From: Lactobacillus sp. MRS-253-APC-2B
GTDB taxonomy: Bacteria; Bacillota; Bacilli; Lactobacillales; Lactobacillaceae
Direction: 5' to 3'
NCBI RefSeq assembly: GCF_012843675.1
Contig: NZ_JABAFO010000017.1
Location: 1-35,124 of the forward strand
DNA length: 35,124 nt
Shown here piece after piece: positions 3,993 to 8,638 of this stretch. The position numbers and the translations under genes are program-made. Position 1 is the first letter of the stretch. Each line of letters begins with the position of its first letter. The notes beneath the pieces were generated by a model that ran no database searches, was not told the DNA's origin, and worked only from the letters and a program-made list of their open reading frames with translations.

Positions 3993-4757
3993 TTACATTT
4001 CAAAGTAGGCATACAGATCGTCAATCGTTAACTTAGCTTTTGCGGCTGCATTGTAATCGGCTTTGATCTGACCATCTTTTAAAACGATCAGCCGGTTGCC
4101 GTATTTGAGAGCATCTTCCATATGGTGGGTAATCATTAAGGCTGTCAGATGATCTTCGGTGATGCGTTGATTGGTAGCGTGCAGCAGATTGCGTGCCGTA
4201 TGTGGATCTAAGGCGGCGGTGTGCTCATCAAGCAACAGAATATCTGGTCGTTTAAGCGTAGCCATCAAAAAGCTCAGTGCCTGCCTTTGCCCGCCAGAAA
4301 GTGCTCCGGTTGGTGTAGTCATACGATTTTCCAAGCCATTGTTCATTTGAGCGGCCAGCTTGGTAAATTCTGGCATTTGCTGTTTTAAACGACGTGGAAT
4401 CAAGTGCCGACGTTCACCACGTTTGGAAGCCAGCAGCATATTTTCAGCAACCGTCATGCGGGGTGCCGTGCCCAGCTTAGGGTCTTGAAAAACGCGGGCT
4501 AAAAAAGCAGTACGCTGTTCTTCAGTTGTTTTGGTAATGTCAGCGCCGGCATGAAAAATCTGGCCCGCATCGGCTTTAAGGTTGCCGCCAATAACATTGA
4601 AAAGAGTCGACTTACCAGCACCGTTCGTCCCGACGATGGTAATGAAGTCGCCGGCATTGATGGTCAGATTGATACCCTTTAAAATCGTAGTTTCATTGGT
4701 AGTACCTGGATTAACGATGGTTTTGACGTTTTTTAGCTCAAGCATTGGTTCAGTCAT
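3993..4757 (-). CDS. ABC importer ATPase, TrpXYZ-like system
   Basis: ATP-binding subunit of 254 residues. Walker A is GTNGAGKST (43-51), the ABC signature is LSGGQ (153-157), Walker B is ILLLDE (173-178), and a switch His occurs in MITHHMEDA. It is the last gene of a three-gene operon with permease and binding protein, and its start overlaps the permease stop by 8 bases. The binding-protein family (ABC_sub_bind, PF04392) and permease type match systems proposed to import tryptophan or other amino acids in lactic acid bacteria. The Walker B Glu is followed by His-Thr (DEHTAALDP), a normal variation. Confidence 0.9.
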   Translation of the reverse strand: MTEPMLELKNVKTIVNPGTTNETTILKGINLTINAGDFITIVGTNGAGKSTLFNVIGGNLKADAGQIFHAGADITKTTEEQRTAFLARVFQDPKLGTAPRMTVAENMLLASKRGERRHLIPRRLKQQMPEFTKLAAQMNNGLENRMTTPTGALSGGQRQALSFLMATLKRPDILLLDEHTAALDPHTARNLLHATNQRITEDHLTALMITHHMEDALKYGNRLIVLKDGQIKADYNAAAKAKLTIDDLYAYFEM

Positions 4758-5649
4758 TGGTTGCGACCCCCTTAAAGAATGGCTTGCGAATGTGGAACAG
4801 CTTGTCCAATTGTGGCAGCATCATGCAGAGCGCCAGGACGATTGAAGAAATCAAGTTGAGGTCGTTAGCGCTAAAGCCTAGTTGCAGTACGGCCAACAGG
4901 ATCAGTCGGTAGATGATGCTCCCTAAGGTTACGGCAACCAGCCGCTGTGACAGCGTCAGCTCGCCAAAGGCCACTTCGCCGATGATAATTGAGGCCAGGG
5001 CAATGACGATCGTCCCAATCCCCATGTTGACATCAGCATAGCCATTGCTTTGAGCAACCAGTGCCCCACAAAGGCCAACCAGACCATTTGAAATCATCAA
5101 GCCAACATTGATCGTGGCATCGGTGTGGATTCCCAGCGATTTGGCCATCACGGGATTGTCGCCGGTTGCGATAAATGACTGGCCGTAGTCGGTATCCAAG
5201 AAAAAGATCAGCAGGAGCGTGATAATGAAAATTACGATCATGCCTAAAACGACACTGTCAAAATATTGGGGCAGCGAGGTCATAAACGATCCAGAAAAAA
5301 GCGTCTTCTTTCCCAGCAGCGAGATGTTTGATTTGCCCATGATACGCAGGTTGACTGAGTAGGCAGCCGTCATGGTTAAGATACCAGCCAACAGGAACGG
5401 AATCTTGCCTTTGGTGTACAGTAGCCCAGTCACCAGGCCTGCCAGCATGCCGGCACCAAAGGCCAGTAGAGTGGATACAATCGGTGAAAAGCCATTGCTG
5501 ATGGCAGTTACGGCTACGGCAGCTCCAAGTGGGAAGGTGCCTTCAACCGTCATGTCAGCCAGATTTAGAATACGGAAGGTCAGGTACAGTCCCAACCCCA
5601 GCAGAGCCCATAACAGACCCTGTCCAATTGCAGATACGATCAGATTCAT
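4750..5649 (-). CDS. ABC importer permease, TrpXYZ-like system
   Basis: Membrane subunit of 299 residues with about eight to nine hydrophobic spans, of the branched-chain amino acid/ribose permease superfamily (PF02653 type). The start MNLIVSAIGQGLLWALLGLGLYLTFRILNLADMTVEGTF resembles permeases paired with ABC_sub_bind proteins. Its ATG overlaps the stop of the binding-protein gene in an ATGA motif, indicating translational coupling. It is expected to form a homodimer with the ATPase encoded next. Confidence 0.9.
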   Translation of the reverse strand: MNLIVSAIGQGLLWALLGLGLYLTFRILNLADMTVEGTFPLGAAVAVTAISNGFSPIVSTLLAFGAGMLAGLVTGLLYTKGKIPFLLAGILTMTAAYSVNLRIMGKSNISLLGKKTLFSGSFMTSLPQYFDSVVLGMIVIFIITLLLIFFLDTDYGQSFIATGDNPVMAKSLGIHTDATINVGLMISNGLVGLCGALVAQSNGYADVNMGIGTIVIALASIIIGEVAFGELTLSQRLVAVTLGSIIYRLILLAVLQLGFSANDLNLISSIVLALCMMLPQLDKLFHIRKPFFKGVATND

Positions 5650-6638
5650 TTGATTACCTCCCCATATTTTTCGGCTTCACGCTGGAAACTGGCTGGTACG
5701 TGCAGACCAAGTTTGCGTGCTTGTTTCAGATTTAGTACGGGTTCGCCGTGACGGATATATTTGATGGCGGTCGTTGATGGCTTTTTCTTGCCTTTCAAAA
5801 TGTCGGCCGTCAATTTACCGCCTTCAACGCCCAGTTTGTATTGATTGATGCTGTAAGTGGCGACCCCGCCTTGCTTAACCATCGTATCAACGGCTGGGAA
5901 AACCGGTTTATTAACGGCATTGGCATTTTTGACCAGTGTCTGCATCGCGCCGGCAATCGTGTTGTCAGTTGGTACGATTACAGCATCAACCTCGCTCAGC
6001 ATCTGCTGCGAGACCTGATTTAAGTCATTGCTGTTGGAAATGGAGTAAGCCTTCAGATTTAAGTGCATCTGCTTGGCGTACTTCATAAATTCTTTATATT
6101 CAGTAACCGCGGAACTGTCGCTGGAAGTGTAGATGATCCCTAACGTCTTGGCGTGCGGCATGAACTTGTGAACCAGTTGCAGCTGTTCTTTAACTGGCGC
6201 TTGGTCCGAGATCCCAGTGATGTTGCCGCCTGGACGCTTGTTGTTCTTAACCAGGCCGGCACTTTGTGGATTGGTTACGGCACCTAAGACGATTGGAATC
6301 TTTTTGGTTGAGTTGGCCAGTGCCTGTGAGGCTGGCGTCGTAATCCCAAACAGAACCGTTGAGTTTTCATTAACCAGCTTGTTGGCCATGGTTTTTAGAT
6401 TGCTTTGATCACCGTTGGCATTTTGATAGTCGATCGTAATGTTTTTGCCGTTGTGATAGCCCTCTTCGGCCAATCCATGGACAAATCCTTTATAGATCTG
6501 ATCCAAAGCTGGGTGATGCATCAAGGTCAAGACCCCGACCTTAGGCTTTGATTGCTTGATGATGCCGCCATTTTCCTTGAAGTAGGCGACTCCAAGAAAC
6601 GTAAGTAAAATGGCGATTACGGTATACATTCTTTTCAT
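5646..6638 (-). CDS. ABC importer substrate-binding protein, TrpX-like
   Basis: Extracytoplasmic binding protein of 330 residues in the ABC_sub_bind family (PF04392). It starts with a membrane anchor, MKRMYTVIAILLTFLGVAYF, without a lipobox cysteine. Two Rossmann-like lobes follow: KPKVGVLTLMHHPALDQIYKG opens the first, and the mid-protein motif IPIVLGAVTNPQSAGLV is highly characteristic of TrpX-type proteins. I chose the ATG at 6638, with AAGGTGG about nine bases upstream. The open frame extends to 6782, but that part runs through two terminators and is not translated. Substrate tryptophan is inferred from the family and from the leader-peptide Trp codon, not proven. Confidence 0.9.
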   Translation of the reverse strand: MKRMYTVIAILLTFLGVAYFKENGGIIKQSKPKVGVLTLMHHPALDQIYKGFVHGLAEEGYHNGKNITIDYQNANGDQSNLKTMANKLVNENSTVLFGITTPASQALANSTKKIPIVLGAVTNPQSAGLVKNNKRPGGNITGISDQAPVKEQLQLVHKFMPHAKTLGIIYTSSDSSAVTEYKEFMKYAKQMHLNLKAYSISNSNDLNQVSQQMLSEVDAVIVPTDNTIAGAMQTLVKNANAVNKPVFPAVDTMVKQGGVATYSINQYKLGVEGGKLTADILKGKKKPSTTAIKYIRHGEPVLNLKQARKLGLHVPASFQREAEKYGEVIK

Positions 6639-6691
6639 GGTGATTTGCCACCTTTCCGAAACCTTTGAATGATTGCTAAACGATAAAATAA

Positions 6692-6721
6692 AAGAGGAAG
6701 CCAGTCTGCAGGCTTCCTCTT
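6692..6721 (-). terminator. Leader terminator 2 of the TrpX-like operon
   Basis: On the minus strand, AAGAGGAAGCC (6721-6711) pairs perfectly with GGCTTCCTCTT (6702-6692) around an 8-base loop and is followed by TTATTTTA. It lies about 54 bases upstream of the binding-protein ATG, so transcription must pass it for the operon to be expressed. The segment AAGCCTGCA spanning its 5' arm and loop repeats the 5' arm of terminator 1 and can pair instead with the 3' arm of terminator 1. Confidence 0.8.
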
Positions 6722-6732
6722 GGGAAAATAAA

Positions 6733-6760
6733 AAGCCTGCATGTGGTTCCATGCAGGCTT
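6733..6760 (-). terminator. Leader terminator 1 of the TrpX-like operon
   Basis: On the minus strand, AAGCCTGCATG (6760-6750) pairs perfectly with CATGCAGGCTT (6743-6733), with a 6-base loop, and is followed by TTTTATTTT. It is a strong intrinsic terminator between the leader peptide and the structural genes. Its 3' arm TGCAGGCTT is complementary over nine bases to 6715-6707 inside terminator 2, giving an alternative fold that would disable both. Confidence 0.82.
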
Positions 6761-6772
6761 GTATTATGAAAT

Positions 6773-6835
6773 AAGCCGGCACAGAATGGATCTGACTTCC
6801 CAGACCGCATTCTGTGCGATCTGAGTTACCGGCTT
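6773..6835 (-). promoter_or_regulatory. Long leader hairpin overlapping the leader-peptide 3' end
   Basis: On the minus strand, an outer stem pairs AAGCCG (6835-6830, codons 13-15 of the leader peptide) with CGGCTT (6778-6773). A perfect 10-bp inner stem pairs GCACAGAATG (6817-6808) with CATTCTGTGC (6788-6779). An apical stem pairs GGTCTG with CAGATC (6794-6789). A second CAGATC at 6823-6818 can compete for GGTCTG. A ribosome held at the Trp codon would cover the AAGCCG arm and release CGGCTT, which has limited complementarity (GGCTT with AAGCC) to the 5' arm of terminator 1. Confidence 0.55.
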
Positions 6836-6873
6836 TGCCAACGAATATTCAGTTGGATGCGGTTGTAACTCAT
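6826..6873 (-). CDS. Leader peptide MSYNRIQLNIRWQSR with a single Trp codon
   Basis: This 15-codon ORF has an excellent ribosome binding site, AAAGGAG, eight bases before its ATG, about 29 bases downstream of the predicted transcription start. It ends in TAA at 6826. Residue 12 is the only tryptophan (TGG at 6840-6838), and codons 13-15 form one arm of the following hairpin. The position, size, strong start signal and two terminators downstream are those of a translated attenuator leader. No T-box core is visible in this leader, although T-boxes are the usual control for tryptophan transporters in Firmicutes. A role in sensing Trp is an inference; sensing of another residue or of a ribosome-stalling ligand is possible. 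Confidence 0.6.
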   Translation of the reverse strand: MSYNRIQLNIRWQSR

Positions 6874-6908
6874 GTGCTTATCTCCTTTCGCGTGTTTGAT
6901 TGTTTTAA

Positions 6909-6938
6909 AGTATAATCAGTATCACGATCGTTTGTCAA
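6909..6938 (-). promoter_or_regulatory. Promoter of the TrpX-like leader/operon
   Basis: On the minus strand, a perfect TTGACA (6938-6933), an 18-base spacer and TATACT (6914-6909). Transcription should start near 6902, giving a leader of about 264 nt before the binding-protein ATG. The plus strand of this region also holds TTGTCA (6932-6937) with TTATGA 17 bases later, a weak candidate for sufS. Confidence 0.75.
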
Positions 6939-6996: not shown

Positions 6997-8226
6997 TTGG
7001 ATATTAAACGCATCAAGCAGGATTTTCCCATTTTTAATCAGCAAGTCAACGATGAGCCATTGACTTATCTAGACAGTGCGGCAACGGCCCAGATGCCAAA
7101 TTCGGTTCTAAATGCTATTGAGTATTACTACCGGCATGATCACGCCAACGTTCATCGTGGTACGCACACGCTGGCACAGCGAGCAACCGCAGCCTATGAG
7201 CAGGCGCGCCAAAAAGTGGGTGACTTTATCAATGCCAATCAGACTGAAGAGATTGTCTTTACCCGCTCGACAACGGAAAGTCTGAACTGGGTTGCTCAAG
7301 GCCTTACCAAAATGATCAATCCGGGTGATGTAATCGTAGCAACGGTAATGGAGCATCACAGCAACCTGGTTCCTTGGCAGCAGCTGGCCAAAAGAACTGG
7401 TGCCAAATTAAGGTTGATTGGTTTAAATGATCAACAAGAACTGGATTTAGACGATGCCAAACGAAAAATCGATGCTAAAGTTAAAATCGTGACGATTGCG
7501 CATGCCTCAAACGTTTTGGGCGTGATTAATCCAATTAAAGAACTCAGTAGCATGGCCCATCGAGTCGGTGCCTGCATGATCGTTGACGGTGCCCAAGCCG
7601 TGCCGCATTTGCCTGTGGATGTGCAGGATCTGGACGCGGACTTTTATGCTTTTTCAGGCCACAAGATGCTGGCACCGACCGGCATCGGTGTTTTATATGG
7701 CAAAATGGAATGGCTAAAACGCTTAGAACCAAGTCAGTTTGGTGGCGAGATGATCGATCAGGTTACCCAGCAGGCGGCAACCTTTAAGCCGGTACCATGG
7801 TGTTTTGAAGCCGGAACGCCTAACATCAGTGGGGCAATTGCATTGGGAGCAGCAATTGACTACTTGAACCAGTTTGGGATGGATCAAATCGCTGATTATG
7901 AACGACAGCTGGCAGTCAAGGCCATCCCCAGACTATTGGCAATTGACGGTCTGACGCTATACGGGCCGCATGATCATCATACCGGAGTTCTGGCCTTTAA
8001 TCTGGCAGGCATTCATCCTCATGATGCAGCTACGGCGCTTGATCTTGAAGGAGTCGCGGTCAGAGCCGGTCATCACTGTGCTCAACCCTTAATGAAAGAA
8101 TTGGGTGTTGATGCAACGCTGCGGGCCAGTCTATATCTGTATAATGATCAAAAAGATCTTGACTGCTTGATTTTGGCCATTAAAGCAACAAAGGAGTTTT
8201 TTGAAAATGGGTTTGAGAAGGCTTAA
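6997..8226 (+). CDS. sufS: Cysteine desulfurase SufS
   Basis: Pyridoxal-phosphate enzyme that takes sulfur from cysteine as a persulfide, 409 residues. The PLP lysine is in AFSGHKMLAPTG (K223), and the catalytic cysteine is in RAGHHCAQP (C361), the type II (SufS) motif. The start is a TTG with AAAGAAGG eight bases upstream; no in-frame ATG fits better. It overlaps sufU by 20 bases, so the two are co-translated, as expected of the SufS-SufU partner pair. SufB, SufC and SufD are not in the window, so the pair may supply sulfur for tRNA thiolation or for an assembly system elsewhere. Confidence 0.95.
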   Translation: MDIKRIKQDFPIFNQQVNDEPLTYLDSAATAQMPNSVLNAIEYYYRHDHANVHRGTHTLAQRATAAYEQARQKVGDFINANQTEEIVFTRSTTESLNWVAQGLTKMINPGDVIVATVMEHHSNLVPWQQLAKRTGAKLRLIGLNDQQELDLDDAKRKIDAKVKIVTIAHASNVLGVINPIKELSSMAHRVGACMIVDGAQAVPHLPVDVQDLDADFYAFSGHKMLAPTGIGVLYGKMEWLKRLEPSQFGGEMIDQVTQQAATFKPVPWCFEAGTPNISGAIALGAAIDYLNQFGMDQIADYERQLAVKAIPRLLAIDGLTLYGPHDHHTGVLAFNLAGIHPHDAATALDLEGVAVRAGHHCAQPLMKELGVDATLRASLYLYNDQKDLDCLILAIKATKEFFENGFEKA

Positions 8227-8638
8227 CTATTTGTATCGTGCCGTAGTTTTGGAACATGCCAGCCATCCACATCATCAAGGAGCAATGCTGGATGCTGATG
8301 CACAGACAACGCTGCATAATCCAACTTGTGGCGATACCATCAATTTGGCCGTCAAAGTAGATCATGACCATATCAGCGACCTTATGTTTACAGGCAGTGG
8401 CTGTACGATCTCACAAGCTTCAGCCAGTATGATGGGGGATGTCTTGATTGGTCAGTCGGTTGATGATGCCAAAAAGCTGATTCATGATTTTTCGGAACTG
8501 ATTATGGGAAAAGAAATCAGCTCTCAGGCCCAAGATCAACTTAAGGATGCGGCCATTCTTGGCAGCGTGGCACAGTTTCCAACCCGGATCAAATGTGCAG
8601 CACTGGCCTGGCATGCGGCTCAAGAATTACTGGAATGA
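8207..8638 (+). CDS. sufU: SufU-type sulfur transfer/scaffold protein
   Basis: Zinc-dependent sulfurtransferase of about 143 residues that accepts the persulfide from SufS. The three conserved cysteines and the aspartate are present: PTCGDT (C41, D43), GSGCTIS (C66) and RIKCAAL (C130). The ATG at 8207 has AAGGAG ten bases upstream; a TTG at 8201 in the same frame is too close to it. A strong terminator follows directly. Confidence 0.95.
   Translation: MGLRRLNYLYRAVVLEHASHPHHQGAMLDADAQTTLHNPTCGDTINLAVKVDHDHISDLMFTGSGCTISQASASMMGDVLIGQSVDDAKKLIHDFSELIMGKEISSQAQDQLKDAAILGSVAQFPTRIKCAALAWHAAQELLE

Follow-up and report, generated by a model that had tools for sequence, protein, structure and literature searches.

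The present analysis indicates that the genes of a tryptophan ABC importer in Lactobacillus sp. MRS-253-APC-2B are very probably preceded by a transcription attenuator that, in the manner of E. coli trp and his, works through the ribosome and senses how far tRNA-Trp is charged. Its leader is found on the minus strand of the 35,124 nucleotides analysed (contig NZ_JABAFO010000017.1, positions 1 to 35,124; hereafter the window). It seems to belong to a numerous family of attenuators that are read by the ribosome and can exchange their sensing codons, a family so far known as an orphan riboswitch candidate. The computed basis of this reading consists of a short ORF, the conservation and the swaps of its codons, competing helices, their covariation and a bias in folding.

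The importer genes after the leader, which an initial annotation had named from the sequence, were recovered by profile searches. The putative regulated gene is trpX (5646..6638, minus strand), coding for the substrate-binding protein of the importer. It matches the NCBIfam equivalog NF041285 with 469 bits against a cutoff of 390, and its product shares 98% identity with a protein of Limosilactobacillus mucosae, which makes it very likely that the genome belongs to Limosilactobacillus. Next on the same strand come a TrpY-like permease (4750..5649, PF02653) and a TrpZ-like ATPase (3993..4757, PF00005), both named from the operon context. A sigma-70-type promoter is found at 6938-6909 (minus strand), with the -35 box TTGACA (6938-6933), an 18-nt spacer and the -10 box TATACT (6914-6909), agreeing with the consensus at 11 of 12 positions. 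A Shine-Dalgarno sequence AAAGGAG (6882..6888) leads an ORF of 15 codons, MSYNRIQLNIRWQSR (6826..6873, stop included), which ends R-W-Q-S-R-stop. Its only Trp codon, TGG at codon 12 (6838..6840), is the proposed sensing codon and stands four codons before the stop. Two terminators follow in tandem, each a hairpin of 11 bp with a U-tract (6733..6760 and 6692..6721); shuffled sequences gave a mean of 0.7 terminator-like hairpins (sd 0.8). The leader stretch 6905-6690 as a whole folds with -89.9 kcal/mol (z = -9.2, 200 shuffles). Promoter, leader ORF and terminators had all been described in the initial annotation and they stand as described. A divergent sufS gene with a TTG start begins near the attenuator promoter, in the stretch 6997-8638 of the plus strand, where it is followed by an ORF that by its look is a candidate SufU; the intergenic region is thus common to two transcription units.

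The arrangement of the helices differs from what had been proposed. A long hairpin does follow the ORF, as had been described, but codons 13-15 are not its 5' arm, and there are two elements instead of one. Codons 13-15 contain segment 1 (AGCCGG, 6829..6834), which forms a short helix with segment 2 (CCGGCT, 6779-6774). The central hairpin (6817-6779, minus strand) is separate and lies entirely 3' of the stop codon. Segment B (CTCAGATC, 6818..6825) adjoins the stop codon and its partner is the part 6806-6799 of segment C (6799..6817), the 5' arm of the central hairpin. Segment D, together with segment 2 (6773..6794), supplies the 3' arm, so that B and D compete for C. The part 6786-6773 of D is also the 5' strand of an antiterminator with segment E (6747..6760), which makes the 5' arm and loop of terminator 1 (E:F). 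This pairing of 6786-6773 with 6760-6747 covers 13 of 14 positions and covaries among relatives. An antiterminator of only 5 bp (GGCTT with AAGCC) had been held to be the weak point of the attenuator reading, and with the longer D:E pairing this weak point falls away. The 5' arm of terminator 2 is also able to pair with F.

When the window was scanned at the Rfam gathering cutoffs, no family reached its cutoff, T-box included. The leader matches RF04312, the trpB motif, over the full model length (6723..6818, minus strand) with 52.1 bits (E 9.6e-07), under the gathering cutoff of 59. Among eight relatives of the genus scanned, two pass the cutoff with 91.2 and 63.8 bits. The kinship of the window leader with RF04312 is clear despite its sub-cutoff score, and the element can therefore not be called uncatalogued. 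The trpB motif was described by Narunsky et al. 2024 as SRC-39-1, a strong riboswitch candidate of unknown ligand with more than 900 representatives in Firmicutes and Fusobacteria, its commonest site being before an uncharacterised ABC transporter homologous to amino-acid transporters (PMC11109978). It appears to be the same RNA: its two hairpins correspond to C:D, the central hairpin, and to E:F, and its gene associations, ABC transporter and trpB, are also the same (PMC11109978). The differences are that the model starts downstream of the leader ORF and omits the ORF together with segments 1 and B, and that a riboswitch candidate was published whereas a ribosome-mediated attenuator is read here (PMC11109978). 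Furthermore, most of the matches found here are under the curated cutoff. Of 251 genomes of the family searched with E up to 0.001, 97 had a match, which exceeded the cutoff in 9. For the order, with E up to 1e-4, the figures were 134 of 295 genomes and 52 over the cutoff, and among 398 genomes drawn from the phylum 3 were matched, two of them belonging to the same order. It had been stated that ribosome-mediated attenuation is rare in this phylum; with 134 of 295 genomes matching, this would not hold for the order if the attenuator reading is right. The only match outside the order (L174:465-556) is overlapped by a match to the pan motif (RF01749); it precedes an SNF-family symporter and its leader contains Phe.

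Conservation of the leader ORF was followed within the genus and beyond it. TrpX was found in 44 of 50 genomes of the genus. The motif TGGCAAAGCC(A/G)G is present, within the stretch examined, at 49 of 54 trpX-related loci including that of the window, and each of these 49 loci has an SD-led ATG whose reading frame runs uninterrupted into the motif and in phase with it; the N-terminal part of the peptide is variable in length and sequence across the genus. The other five loci comprise two that carry the motif elsewhere (L052, L053), two without it (L045, L054) and one with it on the opposite strand. At this last locus (L024:2407-2568, minus strand) trpX and the leader are on different strands and the leader breaks off within the hairpin, which resembles the outcome of an inversion or rearrangement whose breakpoint fell in the attenuator. 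Apart from these genus loci (L001-L054), which were read separately, 180 of the RF04312 matches listed for the family, order and phylum were fetched. In 172 of them the caller assigned a short SD-led ORF whose end is close to the hairpin, and 156 of these ORFs have Trp within the last 10 codons. The 16 called ORFs that lack such a Trp consist of 11 codon-swapped leaders, two wrong ORF calls and three apparent false matches. For eight matches the rule yielded no ORF (L114, L123, L132, L136, L137, L141, L229, L234); most look false by their surroundings and L234 is cut by the contig end. The automatic caller erred at least for L066 and L121, where Trp was seen by eye, and for L299, L301 and L302, where Tyr was seen by eye.

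In a dereplicated set preselected for possessing an ORF, Trp occurred in the last 10 codons of 115 of 130 leaders; when the set was dinucleotide-shuffled 20 times, 1-8 of the 130 had such a Trp. Among 116 leaders, an uninterrupted frame from an SD-led ATG to the first TGG was present 100 times in frame 0, against 8 times in frame 1 and 14 times in frame 2. In the 115 leaders the first Trp stands 4 codons ahead of the stop in 30, 5 codons in 9 and 6 codons in 55 (94/115 together). It is followed by CAA in 97 of 115 and then by AGC in 61, a degree of conservation beyond the needs of codon sensing alone. Across relatives the ORF and its Trp codon are conserved, and the competing stems covary, B:C weakly on the alignment. 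The leaders thus have the short ORF, predicted to be translated, with codons for the regulated amino acid that belongs to an attenuator of the trp/his type.

The helices were evaluated in two ways. For the alignment A1, 23 WQSR-like leaders of Lactobacillaceae were taken out of 125, the number left after removal of L066, L121, L129, L134 and L140 from the dereplicated 130, and each helix was compared with 500 shuffles. No shuffle reached the covariation score of C:D (92.3% of cells paired), E:F (95.2%), D:E (91.3%, with double changes at 6 of 13 pairs) or 1:2 (98.6%, with double changes at 3 of 6 pairs). B:C was weak on this alignment, in which several rows are out of register by one column: 83% of cells were paired (42 of 500 shuffles as high) and the score was reached by 34 of 500. 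An alignment-free control was made by replacing the native partner with the partners of other species (n=125). C:D changed from -19.6 kcal/mol native to -12.2 swapped and E:F from -18.9 to -11.2, an advantage that is partly by construction since C-F were taken from each leader's own fold. The native pairing was also better for B:C (-10.6 against -6.8 kcal/mol, 48 of 125 within the best 5%), for D:E (-15.1 against -12.7) and for 1:2 (-8.5 against -6.2, the linker control giving -2.8 against -3.0). A:B, the pairing of the ORF with the next segment, occurs in the window's own fold; across the set it gained 0.9 kcal/mol (-7.4 against -6.5, 18 of 125 in the best 5%), slightly above the non-model pairs C:F (0.7), A:D (0.5) and B:F (0.2). 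Of the other non-model pairs B:D, B:E, A:C and A:E were worse than swapped, and C:E, like B:F, was 0.1-0.2 kcal/mol better. A second terminator-like hairpin exists in 90 of 125 relatives. In these 90, F pairs with its own terminator-2 5' arm at -9.7 kcal/mol against -6.5 swapped, a comparison made without a negative-control pair, and since F prefers its own arm, a second tier of control is suggested, which is the least tested part of the model. An earlier parse from free folding had put part of B into the central hairpin and was replaced by one that begins at the start of the Rfam match; the main results of the two parses agree.

The effect of ribosome position was modelled by folding each transcript up to segment E with the ribosome-covered part removed, which describes the equilibrium of a truncated transcript and not the kinetics. 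The front edge of a ribosome was taken as 13 nt beyond the start of the A-site codon. Two more leaders that had no sensing codon by the rule were removed, leaving 123. When the ribosome was placed on the sensing codon, D:E exceeded C:D in 106 of 123 leaders, the stall effect being missing in 17; when it was placed on the stop codon, this was so in 8. Without a ribosome D:E prevailed in 44 of 123, so termination was not clearly favoured. When B was shuffled, a ribosome at the sensing codon left D:E ahead in 3 of 123. Moving the edge along all 125 leaders, the antiterminator won in 69-75 with the edge at stop-24 to stop-12, in 78-98 at stop-9 to stop+3 and in 8-13 at stop+9 to stop+15; past stop+18 it recovered, reaching 46 of 110 at stop+24. 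Since the first Trp stands 4-6 codons before the stop in most leaders, the front edge would fall at stop+1 to stop-5, within the favoured range. The window copy resembled the others in this, its expected pairs of D:E and C:D being 13.6 and 1.8 with a stalled ribosome, 9.1 and 14.3 with the ribosome at the stop and 6.8 and 16.7 ribosome-free. The model thus predicts a mutually exclusive antiterminator and terminator set by the position of the ribosome, and the earlier proposal that ribosome position on the leader peptide sets termination finds computational support here.

From these results we infer that the ribosome stalls, that charged tRNA is the effector, which way the system responds and what terminator 2 does. 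Under scarcity of Trp-tRNA the ribosome would stall at the Trp codon with its front edge at about the stop codon, masking segment 1 and leaving segment B free. Free B would pair with C, so that D is released to form the D:E antiterminator; this would block terminator 1 and trpXYZ would be transcribed. When Trp-tRNA is plentiful, the ribosome would move four codons on to the stop codon and mask B. C:D and E:F would then form and transcription would stop at terminator 1, with terminator 2 as a backup. The full six-segment scheme of the his type, which includes a protecting A:B helix, is kept as a possibility because A:B is weak and ribosome-free folds did not clearly favour termination.

The codons of the leaders vary with the genes that follow them. 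The first gene after the 180 RF04312 matches is TrpX-like in 141 and belongs to a TrpB cluster in 12 (two TrpB checked with NCBIfam). Leaders without Trp, such as FFFGFFR, FFAGFFFG, YYYGYFG and (F/Y)(F/Y/N)FSYFR, precede TrpX-like proteins which, in the five tested, score 307-350 bits, below the NCBIfam TrpX cutoff. The leader YYFSYFR precedes aroE, HHHLHR a basic amino-acid antiporter (TIGR00905 over cutoff) and YYWFS, having Tyr plus Trp, a transketolase. When one importer with a Phe/Tyr leader was used as query, 62 of 198 genomes were matched (E up to 1e-90) and gave 30 loci, including two genes seen before (L235, L264). The form LN..(F/Y)(F/Y/N)FSY(F/L)R was found at 22 of the 30 in a first scan and the corresponding Phe/Tyr codon pattern at 28. 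By this comparison, codon identity would set the specificity, as Trp, Phe, Tyr and His leaders each fit the downstream gene, and these swaps lend support to the proposed sensing of charged tRNA.

Several single loci widen the range of downstream genes. Trp leaders stand before OppA-type oligopeptide-binding proteins at L057 and L118 (by NCBIfam) and at L126 (by similarity to L118), which suggests tryptophan-controlled peptide uptake. At L100 and L106 the Trp leaders WQAWYTFDRI and WQVWYIS precede a hydrophobic protein that had no match in Pfam (E 1e-10) or NCBIfam (E 1e-20) and is a candidate tryptophan transporter. The Trp codon is replaced at L131 and L138 (RLRSQ, RLRSR), perhaps giving an Arg or Leu leader, and the genes that follow code for substrate-binding proteins of the polar-amino-acid and OppA types. 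A weak RF04312 match before serC (L116, 1.5e-4) has the leader end SFSWSTVTSV and is possibly of a serine type.

The leader code was also compared with the importers themselves. In a tree of 128 TrpX-like proteins a single branch (support 100, length 0.75) sets off 23 rows, which comprise all 21 proteins with Phe/Tyr leaders and two for which no leader was found; all 103 Trp-leader proteins fall outside it. By a strict rule three alignment columns split the two groups. Crystal structures have identified a specificity switch, which is Gln-284 in SP1069, a Trp binder, and Tyr both in CD0873, which binds Tyr, and in VC_1101, which binds Phe (PMC6816091). One of the three columns, placed by alignment, appears to be this residue (PMC6816091): it is Gln in 103 of 103 Trp-leader proteins and Tyr in 21 of 21 Phe/Tyr-leader proteins. 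A second pocket residue, Glu-263, contacts the tyrosine hydroxyl in CD0873 (PMC6816091). In the first set its site held Asp in the single protein with a nearly pure Tyr leader, Ala or Val in three with Phe leaders and mostly Ser in those with mixed leaders. Hence an expectation was fixed ahead of a further search, namely an acidic residue with Tyr leaders and Ala or Val with Phe leaders. Of 301 genomes of the family 26 were matched and yielded 44 genes. The leader could be read for 29 of these genes, three Tyr leaders being recognised by eye, and four of the 29 repeat the earlier set. Among these readable leaders, Tyr leaders went with Asp in 12 and Thr in 4, so that Asp or Thr was accompanied by Tyr in 16 of 16. 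Ala or Val proteins had Phe leaders in 11 of 13 (Ala 9, Val 2) and mixed leaders in two (Ala). Thr was not foreseen in the expectation; it is nonetheless polar. Of the 15 genes without a readable leader, ten had too little or no upstream sequence, and in five (from L316, L317 and L319, with Thr at the site) no such leader was found in the full upstream stretch. At L303, L307, L308 and L312 Phe-type and Tyr-type importer genes are neighbours, each with its own matching leader. The leader code thus tracks the specificity residues of the importer pocket, an agreement that rests on few independent events because the rows are related and the tree needs five label changes overall.

Other explanations were weighed against the attenuator. 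On the published view of RF04312 as a riboswitch, tryptophan or some other metabolite would be bound by the RNA itself and the short ORF would have no role. This view draws on the standing of the motif as the strong candidate SRC-39-1 (PMC11109978) and on a strongly conserved structure. Against it, a strongly conserved stretch sits in the ORF outside the Rfam model, the leader ORF keeps its frame, SD and codons, and the competing helices explain the first hairpin to a large extent. An aptamer would not be expected to show swaps to Phe, Tyr and His in step with the downstream gene and the binding pocket, and we hold direct binding to be very improbable. A classic attenuator was left possible by the authors themselves, who were unable to exclude it, and the term leader peptide is absent from the main text of their paper (PMC11109978). 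The peptide itself could be the sensor if free tryptophan and W-Q-S-R in the tunnel held the ribosome at the stop codon, masking B and causing termination. TnaC is a nascent-peptide sensor of this type. The strong conservation of the end W-Q-(S/N)-(W)-R beyond bare codon sensing would be explained in this way, and in the folding model a ribosome at the stop codon mostly favours C:D and hence termination. However, runs of Phe, Tyr or His codons swap the specificity, which is the hallmark of codon sensing, Trp codons vary in number and place, and the pairing of segment 1 explains part of the C-terminal conservation. A nascent-peptide sensor is therefore judged quite improbable.

A Trp T-box had to be considered since the homologous trpXYZ operon of Streptococcus suis, with the same presumed signal of tRNA-Trp charging, has an experimentally supported one (PMC9382623). 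That is a different RNA: the leader here had no T-box (RF00230) match even with E up to 10, and it measures about 200 nt between the -35 box and the end of terminator 1, whereas the S. suis T-box has 461 (PMC9382623). T-box detection works in this genome, as 29 matches were found outside the window's contig (8 over cutoff, all E <= 3.2e-8), and the T-box identity was rejected, its chance being negligible. The initial annotation had likewise called the leader not a T-box. Hardly any weight falls on terminators with a conserved non-regulatory short ORF, or on an RNA acting in trans. For the latter it could be argued that a related leader family was catalogued as sRNA_2410 of Enterococcus faecium, for which Northern blotting revealed two transcripts (PMC5593968). 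A terminating attenuator, however, itself yields a small RNA, and codon swaps fitting the downstream gene demand an explanation in cis. The Enterococcus family, RF02863, matches 3 of 20 scanned Phe/Tyr-leader loci, which lie before TrpX-like importers and aroE; it was catalogued as a small RNA (PMC5593968) and would here be the terminated leader transcript. Two transcripts would then be expected, as the leaders may end at two terminators. The attenuator of the trp/his type is the reading that we retain.

Enterobacterial his and trp attenuators are built from a short ORF with sensing codons, competing helices and an antiterminator/terminator pair. The leader described here shares these features and the presumed sensing of charged tRNA, and like the his attenuator it opposes B:C and D:E to C:D and E:F. 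The family differs in that A:B is weakly supported, that there is often a single Trp codon, that two terminators stand in series and that codons are swapped within one family; no sequence relation to the enterobacterial leaders was shown. In Firmicutes, His leader attenuators have been predicted for his-related genes in Bacillus, Peptostreptococcaceae and Erysipelotrichales (PMC2965389, PMC9413887), and the his genes of Lactobacillales were assigned to T-boxes (PMC9413887). In the portions of these reports considered here, the predicted His leaders have no link to RF04312 or to aromatic importers. In the open-access literature searched, no earlier account was recognised of a leader peptide of the trpXYZ/trpB motif or of a WQSR leader, nor of attenuation by such leaders in Lactobacillus, Lactobacillales, Streptococcus or Enterococcus. 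The class of mechanism is thus known; the identity of this family, its code swapping and its link with the ligand pocket are new as far as we have searched.

A wider proposal, to which we give a little less than an even chance, is that RF04312 and RF02863 are one evolvable ribosome-read switch of Lactobacillales, in which a small number of leader codons (Trp, Phe, Tyr, His and perhaps Arg or Leu) fixes the amino acid that is sensed. It would be re-coded as the importer changes its ligand, so that the leader spells the substrate even of uncharacterised importers. One stalled ribosome would disarm both terminators, because pairing of D with E frees F, which then binds the 5' arm of terminator 2. 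The attenuator reading offers a testable solution for an orphan strong riboswitch candidate of more than 900 reported representatives (PMC11109978), and the enterococcal small RNA family would become the terminated form of sister leaders. If true, attenuation of the trp/his type would be widespread in an order usually described through its T-boxes. It also offers a rule, that the ligand of an aromatic amino-acid importer can be told from the codons of its leader, and this rule agrees with the pocket residues of crystal structures (PMC6816091). Such a rule would allow uncharacterised TrpX-like proteins to be annotated as importers of Phe or Tyr.
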